36,571 nt of DNA from Acidimicrobiia bacterium (GTDB lineage Bacteria > Actinomycetota > Acidimicrobiia > Spongiisociales > UBA5794): positions 1 through 36,571 of the forward strand of contig JASJEG010000029.1 in the NCBI GenBank assembly GCA_030064765.1. The letters are read 5' to 3'. Under the pieces are notes generated by a model that saw only the letters and a program-made list of their open reading frames with translations, had not been told where the DNA came from and searched no databases. This document shows positions 15,529-18,648 of this stretch, one piece after another. Every line of letters starts with the position of its first letter. Positions within the stretch are counted from its first letter, which is position 1. The position numbers and the translations under genes were made by a program.

Positions 15529-16902
15529 CTAGCCGCGGAACACCCAGCCACGTTCCTCGGCCAGTTGTCGCGCTTCCTCGTCGGTCATGCGGACGAGGGC
15601 TCCGTAAGTGAGGCCGCCCCGCTTGATCATGCCGATGAACGCCTCGACGAGCTCCGGATCGAACTGAGTGCCCGCTCCATTGCGGAGCTCCCGAAAAGCT
15701 TCCTCCTGAGTCAGCGCCATCCGATAGGGTCGGTTGCTGGTCATGGCGTCGAACGCATCGGCGATGGCCAGCACCCGCGACTCGACTGAGGGCACCTCGC
15801 CGTCCTCGCTGTGTCTGCCGCGATAGCCACCGCCGTCGTAGTGGGCGTGGTGATCCGAGGCGATCTCAACCAATGGGTGGAGCCAGTCGACGTCCTTGAG
15901 CAGATCGTCGATGTGGTGGACGTGACCCCGCATTGCCTGCGTTTCGGCGGTGGTGAGCCGGCCGCGCTTCTTGAGCAACTCGCGCGGCACCGCCAGCTTG
16001 CCGAGGTCGTGGATGAGCGCGGAGTGCCGGATCCGTTCCTGCATATCACCGGACAGCTTGAGTTCCTGAGCCAGTTGCACCGCAAAGATGGCAACCCGCT
16101 CGGTGTGCCCGCGGGTATAGAGATCCTTCGCCTCGAGCGTCTTGACCAAGGTGGCAAGCATGCTCTCCCGAGCCACCCGCAGCCGCCCCAAGGAGGCAAA
16201 GAACAGGTGGCTGATCAACAGGGTGGCGATCACGAGGAGCAGCATTGCATTGAAGGTGCCGTTTTCGGCCGAGTACTGAACGTACGCATAGCCGAGGAAA
16301 CCGCCCATCGCTCCGAGTCCGACAAAGCCGATGAGAATCTGTGCCAGGTTCGACCACGGGCCGGCAAGCTTGGAGCCGAAGACCTGGCGAATCACGAGGC
16401 GGGTCAGCGCCGTGCTGACGAAGTCTGCTGTGGCGGCCGCTATCGCCCCGGCGGCCACGACATGTATGAGGCTGGCGGTCCCCACGTCACTTGGGAGCAG
16501 CAGGACCAGGGTAAGGGCGGCTGTGGCCGCATTGAGCGTTCCGATCCCGAGGTTCGCCAGTGGCTGGAACAGCCTGCGGTCGGCAAAGTCGCGGGGTTGG
16601 AGGAAGCCGATGAGCGCCATGGCGAGCAACCCACCGATGGCGTCGTCCGGGCCCAGGGCAACACCGGCCGCAACCAGGACTGCGATACCTGGTGAGGTCA
16701 TCATCAGGTCATTGACTTCGACGGCGTAGAACTCGAGAACGAAGAAGGCGAGGGCGAAGGCTGCCCACAGCAACAGCTTGTCGGGCAAGCCGTAGACATA
16801 GAAAGCCGCAGCCGGAAGAGCGATACCAATGATGCCCAACAGCGCAGCGTAGATGCGCTTGCGCCGTTGCTGAATGGGATATGGGGTTTCGTAGTAGGCC
16901 AT
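15529..16902 (-). CDS. Membrane-bound HD-GYP-type phosphohydrolase
   Basis: The 457-residue protein has a membrane sensor part with about six to eight hydrophobic segments between residues 17 and 236, then a C-terminal HD-GYP-type domain. Visible are RGHTERVA (265-272), HSALIHDLGKLAVP with the metal pair His298-Asp299, RGHVHH (325-330), HHAHYDGGGYRG (351-362), and RVLAIADAFDAMTSNRPYR. HD-GYP domains hydrolyse c-di-GMP or related nucleotides. Here the diagnostic GYP reads GYR and the canonical HHE reads HHA, so specificity may differ. No diguanylate cyclase is in the window. A 29-codon ORF lies 57 nt upstream in a long leader region. Confidence 0.85.
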   Translation of the reverse strand: MAYYETPYPIQQRRKRIYAALLGIIGIALPAAAFYVYGLPDKLLLWAAFALAFFVLEFYAVEVNDLMMTSPGIAVLVAAGVALGPDDAIGGLLAMALIGFLQPRDFADRRLFQPLANLGIGTLNAATAALTLVLLLPSDVGTASLIHVVAAGAIAAATADFVSTALTRLVIRQVFGSKLAGPWSNLAQILIGFVGLGAMGGFLGYAYVQYSAENGTFNAMLLLVIATLLISHLFFASLGRLRVARESMLATLVKTLEAKDLYTRGHTERVAIFAVQLAQELKLSGDMQERIRHSALIHDLGKLAVPRELLKKRGRLTTAETQAMRGHVHHIDDLLKDVDWLHPLVEIASDHHAHYDGGGYRGRHSEDGEVPSVESRVLAIADAFDAMTSNRPYRMALTQEEAFRELRNGAGTQFDPELVEAFIGMIKRGGLTYGALVRMTDEEARQLAEERGWVFRG

Positions 16903-16959
16903 GGCTGGATCGGTAGGGACCGACAGAGTTGGGGAAGATGTGGAGGGCCGGGTCGGGCT

Positions 16960-17049
16960 TTAGCCAATCTTGACGCCGGCAGCACTGCTCATTAGGGCGG
17001 CTGCGAGACTTCCAAGTGCCAGCAGGATCCTTGCCATCTTGTTACGCAT
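16960..17049 (-). CDS. Possible 29-residue hydrophobic peptide upstream of HD-GYP gene
   Basis: An ATG at 17049 opens a frame that ends in TAA at 16960. The peptide begins MRNKMARILLALGSLAAAL and ends MSSAAGVKIG. The basic start plus one hydrophobic stretch of about 14 residues looks like a short membrane or exported peptide or a leader peptide. There is no cysteine, which argues against an AgrD-type thiolactone. The ribosome site is weak (GGATCGGACGTGATCC). It lies 57 nt upstream of the HD-GYP gene on the same strand. No relative is recognised, and the frame could be chance. Confidence 0.35.
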   Translation of the reverse strand: MRNKMARILLALGSLAAALMSSAAGVKIG

Positions 17050-17077
17050 TGGATCACGTCCGATCCGGTGTTTTCTC

Positions 17078-17096
17078 TGCTCAACATGGTTGAGCA
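17078..17096. promoter_or_regulatory. Perfect inverted repeat TGCTCAAC-ATG-GTTGAGCA
   Basis: This is an 8-bp perfect dyad with a 3-bp spacer, 29 bp upstream of the small ORF. It could be a repressor operator or, in RNA, a stem with a tight loop. No poly-U follows in either direction, so an intrinsic terminator is unlikely. Confidence 0.45.
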
Positions 17097-17306
17097 CGAA
17101 GGGTATTGCGCTTCGCTCGGGGGATCACCCGGCCCGGACCGCTCCACAAACCTGTGTTGTCTAGGTGCCGATCTTGCCCCATGCCGGATGACTCAGCGTC
17201 ACCGGTCCGCCCAAAGACCACAGTCTGTAGGCACGACATTAAGGGATCCCCGACGCCTAATGCAAGAACGGTTTTCGCGACTATCCAGGTTCTGGCGGAC
17301 GAGAGC

Positions 17307-18155
17307 TCAGAAGACGCCGTCGTAACGCTCCCAGTCGACCACGGTTCCGTCCGGCAATTGCAGGACGATTGTGTCCCCACCGTTGGACCAGACGGGATCG
17401 CGCGCACACCAGTACAGGTCGCTTGCCGTGTCCGAACCGCATCCCGAATGCACGACTACGGACTGTCCCATTTCAAGGCCAAAGCCTTGCGGAAACACGA
17501 ATCGGTTCTGGGTGGACTCATCTCGCAAGATCCATCCCGACATGTCGGTGCTTCCGGAGTCACTGACGATTTCCACCCATTCGTCGTTCGCTCGTTCGGA
17601 GTCACGACCCGGGGGATTAAAGACAAAGTCGGCGATCACGGCAGCAGGTAGGGGCGCCGGCGGGCCACAAGCGGACTGAGACCACATGCCGAGGCGTGCC
17701 GCTGCTGCCGCATCGACCGCCGCAACGAACTCGGTTTCGAGGCTGTGCCCGGTCTGCAGCGCAAGGGCGTCTCCGGCCACGACGAGGGCAAGGTTGGCGT
17801 TGACGCCGTCGACAAAGACGTAGCGCAGCAGGCGACCGAACTGGTCCGTGTCTTCCTCGTCACCGACGAGAGTCAGTTCGCTCTCCCCGAGCAACGAGCC
17901 AAGGGTGTCGCGGGCGGCGTCGCCGTGGCACTCCTCACCCTCGGGCGCGTTGATCCCGATCAGCCGCACCTCGGCGAAGCTCCCGTCGTAACGTTCCACT
18001 TCGATCGAGTCGCCATCCAACACGCGGCGAAGTACGACGCGCTCCCCGGGTGATTCCGCATTCTCCGCACCAACACCATTGGTCGAACCGCCACCAGTAG
18101 TCCCGGTGCAGGCAGATGTGGCAACCACCAGGCCGGCGATGATGAGTCGGTACAT
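17307..18155 (-). CDS. Lipoprotein with staphylococcal-nuclease and lamin-tail domains
   Basis: From the ATG at 18155 the protein is 282 residues. A signal sequence ends in ATSAC, so Cys16 should be lipidated and the protein anchored outside the cell. The SNase domain runs about 40-150: VLDGDSIEV (Asp47/Asp49), VRLIGINAPEGEE (Arg64, Glu72), and DQFGRLLRY (Arg108). The usual acidic residue of DTPE is Asn69 here, a change also common in SNase-like homologues. Residues about 170-280 form a lamin-tail (LTD) domain (DFVFNPPG, NDEWVEIV, GWILRD, SNGGDTIVL). Extracellular DNA or RNA cleavage is the likely activity. The start is supported by TACATT 7 nt upstream of the ATG. Confidence 0.82.
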   Translation of the reverse strand: MYRLIIAGLVVATSACTGTTGGGSTNGVGAENAESPGERVVLRRVLDGDSIEVERYDGSFAEVRLIGINAPEGEECHGDAARDTLGSLLGESELTLVGDEEDTDQFGRLLRYVFVDGVNANLALVVAGDALALQTGHSLETEFVAAVDAAAAARLGMWSQSACGPPAPLPAAVIADFVFNPPGRDSERANDEWVEIVSDSGSTDMSGWILRDESTQNRFVFPQGFGLEMGQSVVVHSGCGSDTASDLYWCARDPVWSNGGDTIVLQLPDGTVVDWERYDGVF

Positions 18156-18162
18156 CTTTCGC

Positions 18163-18168
18163 AATGTA
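18163..18168 (-). promoter_or_regulatory. -10 box TACATT for leaderless SNase-LTD mRNA
   Basis: On the minus strand TACATT is 7 nt before the ATG at 18155. There is no Shine-Dalgarno sequence. Confidence 0.45.
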
Positions 18169-18237
18169 GTGGCCGTCGGTGGCGCTAGCCCCAGAGCTGC
18201 AGTGTCTCGAACTCGTCGTTGCGGGCTGTGTGGGGGA

Positions 18238-18648
18238 TCACTCGGTCGGCAGCCCGGCGCCAAACCAAGCCTGGATCCCGCCGTCGAGCTCGTATACCTC
18301 GGAGAATCCGATCGAGTCCATCAACGGCAGCGTGTTCGATGAACGATTGCCCGAATTGCAGTACATGACGTATGGGACGTCGAGGTCGAGTACCCCGAGC
18401 CGCTGCTCGAAGTCGCCGGCGTAGTAGTCAATGTTGATAGCCCCCTCGATATGGCCTGCGGCGAACTCCTCGGGAGTACGAATGTCGAGGATGACCAGAC
18501 CATCAGGCGGATTGCTGATGATCTCCGATACCTCGTCTACCGGGGTCAGCTGAAGGCCAGCCTCGGTAGACGTCGAGCCTCCACACGAGGCCAGTAGCGC
18601 CGCACCGGCGAGAATGACTGCGACGATTCGGATCCGATGACGGCTCAT
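18238..18648 (-). CDS. Rhodanese-domain lipoprotein
   Basis: The 136-residue precursor begins at an ATG that overlaps the stop of the upstream rhodanese gene (ATGA). A lipobox LLASC gives lipidated Cys22, so the domain lies outside the membrane. The rhodanese fold shows ILDIRTPEEFAAGHIEGAINI and an active-site loop CNSGNR with Cys97, then the C-terminal YELDGGIQAWFGAGLP. The loop keeps Cys and the closing Arg, so sulfur transfer or persulfide chemistry is possible. Its pair encodes a soluble rhodanese, suggesting sulfur handling on both sides of the membrane (inference). Confidence 0.85.
   Translation of the reverse strand: MSRHRIRIVAVILAGAALLASCGGSTSTEAGLQLTPVDEVSEIISNPPDGLVILDIRTPEEFAAGHIEGAINIDYYAGDFEQRLGVLDLDVPYVMYCNSGNRSSNTLPLMDSIGFSEVYELDGGIQAWFGAGLPTE

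Follow-up and report, generated by a model that had tools for sequence, protein, structure and literature searches.

Results

A small ORF and several hairpins precede an HD-GYP gene

The DNA analysed here (the window) is a 36,571-nt stretch from an Acidimicrobiia bacterium and makes up a single contig; the assembly to which it belongs is fragmented and incomplete (242 contigs, 78% complete). On the minus strand, a 404-nt gap (16903-17306) separates the stop of a gene for an SNase/lamin-tail-domain protein (17307-18263) from the start of an HD-GYP gene (16902). The original prediction placed a stem, a perfect 8-bp dyad and a 29-codon ORF in this gap and proposed a new regulatory RNA or peptide. 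All of these features are present on the minus strand where they had been placed, and we additionally find a short motif and a helix that encloses the ORF (TGTGGA..GGGCCGGGT with ACCCGGCCC-TCCACA; Table 1).

Table 1. Features of the leader and its downstream gene, in window coordinates.
Feature	Position	Strand	Remarks
P0, upstream hairpin (CCGGTGAC, 17205-17198; GTCATCCGG, 17192-17184)	17184..17205	-	predicted stem; two-sided changes at 3 of 6 counted pairs within the genus
P1, 5′ arm (TTTGTGGA..GGGCCGGGT)	17127..17150	-	pairs with 16953-16939
R1 covariance-model match	17041..17129	-	17.7 bits, E = 0.0053; a modest score
Core motif (AGCGAAGCG)	17109..17117	-	consensus AGCGRAGCGGA; near-invariant
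P3, hairpin (TGCTCAAC-CAT-GTTGAGCA)	17078..17096	-	predicted dyad; two-sided changes
smORF (MRNKMARILLALGSLAAALMSSAAGVKIG, then stop)	16960..17049	-	29 aa; stop 57 nt ahead of the HD-GYP ATG; supported by translation, HMM and pN/pS
P1, 3′ arm (ACCCGGCCC TCCACA)	16939..16953	-	begins 6 nt past the smORF stop
HD-GYP-type phosphodiesterase gene	15529..16902	-	N-terminal multi-helix membrane domain related to MASE9; Pfam HD_5, 2.6e-32

The HD-GYP enzyme carries HDLGK and has HHAHYDGGGYR in place of HHExxDGxGYP, a change common to many of the orthologues in the order. Since this motif departs from the usual one, phosphodiesterase activity is assumed here. A relative with 73% identity comes from an Acidimicrobiia metagenome-assembled genome, and no close full-length copy of the enzyme was found in plasmid records.

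Profile searches show the N-terminal domain to be homologous to MASE9-bearing proteins. The window protein falls below the curated cut-off of the MASE9 model (PF20972), so we refer to it as MASE9-like; among 16 aligned homologues, matches at E <= 0.1 were obtained for 9, the best being 6.8e-13. An AlphaFold model of the membrane domain is confident and multi-helical (pLDDT 86.8). Its closest predicted fold in the PDB, by Foldseek, is that of ECF-transporter S components such as RibU, ThiT and BioY (probability 0.8-1.0, TM about 0.5-0.59 by target length), at a best E of 0.025 and about 13% identity, which is not significant alone. Unlike those components, the sensor domain lacks ECF partners and is fused to signalling outputs. 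A PDB sequence search with the sensor-domain profile gave no match.

The 29-codon ORF is a conserved gene

Orthologues or homologues of the enzyme occur in 117 of 149 relatives. Where an orthologous HD-GYP gene had upstream sequence, an intact smORF was found shortly 5′ of it in 57 of 67 relatives, and in most orthologues the smORF stops 35-80 nt before the enzyme gene. The peptides share the consensus MKxxLxRxxxxAGSLAAxxxAGAAxxKIG. An HMM built from 29 relatives matches across the order in about 65 genomes (E 1e-7 to 1e-14 per genome, with values down to 4e-14), with matching positions. Pfam and NCBIfam searches with the peptide returned no family.

We then considered selection on the codons. 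Over 11 taxonomic groups, pN was 0.12 and pS 0.47 (pN/pS about 0.25), and changes were concentrated at the third codon position (539/268/1162 for the three positions). The ratio within the window's own genus was 0.24; the exception to purifying selection was group f75, with three members and a pN/pS of 1.06. The 29-codon ORF is therefore a genuine conserved gene under purifying selection.

The peptide resembles a signal peptide, with a basic N-terminus, a hydrophobic core and a short tail. Across units its length is 24-30 aa. Ala-24 is its only invariant column; a small residue stands two positions earlier, an arrangement like a signal-peptidase site. By these sequence features it could be a pheromone precursor, that is, a short secreted precursor.

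Some lineages depart from this pattern. One family probably uses CTG as the smORF start. In another observation confined to one family, the RNA motif persists beside a degenerate peptide core (L034, L043, L046, L048 and L051) or a shifted frame (L035); several of these loci retain the start and the end in RIG followed by a stop, which may reflect decay or a changed role. Thus the RNA can outlive the peptide. In family f8, no unit was found upstream of the two orthologues examined (L067 and L071).

The leader is a structured RNA absent from Rfam

The original prediction had recognised no known riboswitch core, and this was borne out. At the gathering threshold, Rfam 15 had no match in the window or in 20 relatives, and with lax thresholds the leader alone and nine distant loci gave chance-level matches only. 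No Rfam family, GEMM-I, GEMM-II and ydaO included, matches the window or 29 related loci.

Sequence and structure of the leader are both kept in relatives, which clearly contradicts the condition of absent conservation that the original prediction had named as a refutation; the ORF is under purifying selection (above) and the RNA covaries. The motif AGCG[A/G]AGCG(GA) lies 61-79 nt 5′ of the smORF start in 71 of 73 motif-bearing loci; an exact match to the core is absent in 7 of 80 loci. In a 28-row alignment spanning Actinomycetota and Bacillota, the core motif is invariant and forms, together with UAGCGG in the loop of P3, the hairpin that follows, the conserved blocks. The P3 loop carries UAGCGG in most other lineages and is without it in the window's own genus. 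Separately, we observed that the roughly 60 nt 5′ of the motif (17121-17181, minus strand; GGGGCAAGATCGGCACCTAGACAACACAGG...GGGCCGGGTGATCC) are nearly invariant in the genus, exceeding what P1 pairing needs, and that GACAA from this region recurs in other families.

The folding energy of the leader was unremarkable against expectation (z = -0.63), so we took the evidence from covariation instead. Within the genus, P3 has two-sided changes at 5 of 9 pairs. In the 28-sequence alignment it shows 52 two-sided compensatory cells, compared with 26 in shuffles (0 of 500 reached this number). When P3 was refitted on 82 sequences, there were 168 such cells vs 68 in shuffles (0/500), and 74% of cells paired, compared with 41-50% for slid controls. 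For P0 and P3 together, six members of the genus gave 12 two-sided compensatory cells, compared with 4.4 in shuffles, none of 500 shuffles reaching 12; 88% of their cells pair, compared with 37-46% in slid controls.

To follow the RNA by itself, we used a covariance model (R1) trained without the window's genus. R1 matches 32 of 297 Actinomycetota genomes, nearly always with one copy per genome. Thirty R1 loci were fetched. In 28 of them the element is followed by a gene for a recognisable MASE9-like protein or, at L274, for another membrane protein; of the remainder, L267 runs off its contig and L270 has a downstream gene that the profile did not recognise. The three loci found by RNA only (L270-L272) have a divergent yet similar hydrophobic smORF, e.g. 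MKKRVQVRRVLARVSGGLVAVIGAIPALLSGWQW, together with P1. Copies of the unit are present in Bacillota as well (L129, L131 and L169), and an Eisenbacteria genome has a diverged version (L174). Immediately 5′ of the unit, distant lineages carry a gene for a protein family ending in A(V/A)xRATLDAINRRL (L129, 1683-2339; L132, 1825-2484; L169, 1513-2154), for which Pfam gave no match.

A long-range helix encloses the small ORF

Sequence 5′ of the core motif pairs with sequence right after the smORF stop. The resulting helix, P1, encloses the motif, P3 and the whole ORF, and in the minimum-energy fold it lies outside every other helix around the ORF. In 59 dissimilar representatives, the mean P1 energy was -39.9 kcal/mol for a locus's own arms vs -28.1 kcal/mol for arms swapped between loci (P = 7e-16). 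Against dinucleotide shuffles the median z was -3.1, and all 60 shuffles were beaten in 37 of the 59. Ungapped cores in 18 loci are 9-28 bp long, and P1 starts 0-35 nt past the stop. In low-GC relatives, a U tract follows the 3′ arm (L169, GTCGGCCCTTTTTTTT; L215, GTCGGTCC-TCTTTTT), and P1 with its U tract resembles an intrinsic terminator whose loop is an entire gene.

The Shine-Dalgarno region can also be paired within the leader. The flank immediately 5′ of the motif pairs with it in many lineages, which is supported and not universal; in others, judged by eye, sequestration is by the 3′ strand of P3, which pairs with sequence just before the AUG. When a helix between Shine-Dalgarno and anti-Shine-Dalgarno was subjected to the swap test, own arms gave -9.7 and swapped arms -7.7 kcal/mol, and the own pairing ranked in the top 5% in only 12 of 86 cases. 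We therefore rejected a uniform helix of this kind as universal, although it looks real in many lineages. The mode of sequestration thus depends on the lineage.

Conserved structure with covariation, the mark of a cis-regulatory structured RNA, was found for P3, for P0 and P3 within the genus, and for P1 in the swap and shuffle comparisons. These data indicate that the leader is a structured RNA absent from Rfam. The original prediction had left the choice between a new RNA and a new peptide; purifying selection on the ORF and covariation in the RNA support both at once, and what had been noticed at this locus is real and was understated.

The peptide tracks MASE9-like sensors

When the phylum was searched by the peptide alone, some neighbours were GGDEF-EAL proteins or histidine kinases instead of HD-GYP proteins. 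L238 encodes a GGDEF-EAL protein behind the AGCGRAGCGGA RNA and L240 another GGDEF-EAL protein; at L233, L235, L245 and others, histidine kinases lie beside the peptide ORF. An HMM of the N-terminal domain, built from the window protein and its orthologues, matches those neighbours with E values of 1e-18 to 1e-43. Several of the HD-GYP proteins and kinases linked to the peptide match the MASE9 model itself or come close to doing so (E = 1.4e-06 for L169 and L245).

A MASE9-like protein lies within about 1.5 kb in 26 of 27 usable peptide-only loci. It is near the peptide in all 18 extended loci, at a distance of 0.8-3 kb in the array loci L239-L242. The single exception to the linkage is L229 (about 1500-2350), where a similar peptide ORF, with neither the motif nor a MASE9-like neighbour, is followed by a small membrane protein. 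Two findings go beyond what the original prediction described: the ORF is enclosed by the RNA, and the peptide family goes with the MASE9-like sensor domain and not with HD-GYP as such.

Beside histidine kinases, the peptide ORF and the kinase genes are usually on opposite strands, and the RNA motif is missing. L233, L234, L235, L236, L243, L244 and L250 have tandem pairs of histidine kinases, MASE9-like where checked, with one opposite-strand peptide ORF between them. We also observed arrays of two to four related peptide ORFs (L239, 5610-5780; L240, 1382-1840; L241, 4968-5556; L242, 3243-5026), which are without the AGCGRAGCG RNA, have the tails ARWKPN, AGWKPY and ARFKNH, and sit 5′ of MASE9-like genes (GGDEF-EAL where checked).

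Discussion

Peptide and RNA recur in distant bacteria, nearly always beside the same type of sensor. This suggests a module for sensing peptides that is so far undescribed and has an RNA control of its own. Conservation, coding selection, covariation and genomic linkage are established here. The locus can be read as one copy of a widespread three-part signalling unit. Its parts would be a structured 5′ RNA, with the AGCGRAGCGGA core, P3, a Shine-Dalgarno region open to sequestration and a long terminator-like P1 around the ORF; a gene for a signal-peptide-like peptide of 24-30 aa inside that RNA; and a protein, usually of the HD-GYP type, whose membrane sensor domain is MASE9-like.

As to the most likely mechanism, we infer secretion or trimming, contact between peptide and sensor, and an RNA switch with its trigger. 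The peptide would be inserted in the membrane or secreted across it, and perhaps trimmed after Ala-24 to free a tail of 4-6 residues (GVKIG, SFRVG or GWRW). The MASE9-like domain would sense the peptide or form a complex with it and so set c-di-GMP phosphodiesterase activity. The RNA would probably gate translation of the peptide through Shine-Dalgarno masking, and P1, which begins where a terminating ribosome would sit, may couple this translation to read-through into the enzyme gene. Feedback by c-di-GMP is one guess for the trigger of the RNA. That a secreted or membrane peptide signals to, or partners, the MASE9-like sensor, its synthesis being gated by a new cis-regulatory RNA, is our preferred reading, to which we would give about an even chance.

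Three other readings were weighed. The ORF could be only a leader peptide whose translation controls the downstream gene in cis, by coupling or by attenuation through P1, its product having no role of its own. The HD-GYP units fit such an attenuator by position, with 35-80 nt between ORF stop and enzyme gene for most orthologues, P1 0-35 nt past that stop and a U tract after it in low-GC members, and the RNA is retained in lineages in which the peptide core has degenerated. However, the ORF of an attenuator always lies upstream on the same transcript, and this peptide family has members encoded between or beside MASE9-like histidine kinases on the other strand, where the RNA motif is missing; these peptides therefore cannot be only leader peptides. 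Conservation of amino acids in the core and tail (pN/pS about 0.25) also goes beyond what a coupling ORF needs, and we consider this reading unlikely. A reading in which the leader serves the enzyme operon mainly as a riboswitch or a protein-binding RNA, with an incidental peptide, draws on the strong covariation, the near-invariant AGCGRAGCGGA across phyla and the single copy per genome at these operons only. It is hard to square with the strong coding selection on the ORF, with the peptide-like ORFs present even at loci found through the RNA alone, and with the peptides that accompany MASE9-like proteins where the RNA is absent; we regard it as highly improbable.

The peptide might instead be a membrane-resident subunit or chaperone of the MASE9-like sensor and not a diffusible signal, as its one hydrophobic segment, basic N-terminus, very short tail and strict linkage to a membrane domain would allow. 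Ala-24 with the small residue two positions before it resembles a signal-peptidase site, and the tails, short and variable, have the look of a released product, which argues against a resident subunit and is not proof in either case. We consider such a subunit unlikely.

For a signalling peptide linked to a MASE9-like sensor, the closest known precursors are those of pheromones. Streptococcus SHP peptides and Enterococcus sex pheromones have short signal-peptide-like precursors and cytosolic receptors, Rgg and PrgX. The peptides described here are like these precursors in having 20-30 aa, a basic start, a hydrophobic core, a short C-terminal tail and an adjacent signalling protein. They differ in their candidate partner, which is not a cytosolic Rgg or PrgX but the membrane domain of a fusion with HD-GYP, GGDEF-EAL or a histidine kinase, and in that a structured RNA contains the gene in the HD-GYP cases. 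The RNA is like GEMM-I, GEMM-II and ydaO in being a structured leader 5′ of a c-di-GMP enzyme operon that can mask the Shine-Dalgarno. Unlike them, it has no Rfam match, carries the AGCGRAGCGGA core and a UAGCGG hairpin loop, and has a helix that encloses a complete ORF. In the open-access literature searched we found no text on a ligand or a partner peptide for MASE9, and nothing on point on HD-GYP small ORFs or HD-GYP RNA motifs.

The linkage puts forward a concrete candidate ligand for the MASE9 family in the tiny peptide whose gene is adjacent, and the leader adds a new class of structured RNA that apparently controls peptide synthesis. In the broadest form of this proposal, which we advance tentatively and hold to be rather less probable than the preferred reading at this locus, tiny messengers derived from signal peptides would be the cognate inputs of MASE9-like sensors with HD-GYP, GGDEF-EAL or histidine kinase outputs in Actinomycetota, Bacillota and others, an undescribed class of peptide signalling, and the mRNA of the c-di-GMP branch would carry a new riboswitch-like element around the gene. 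If true, peptide communication would be joined to c-di-GMP signalling in poorly studied Actinomycetota, and directly testable pairs of peptide and receptor would be predicted in several phyla.
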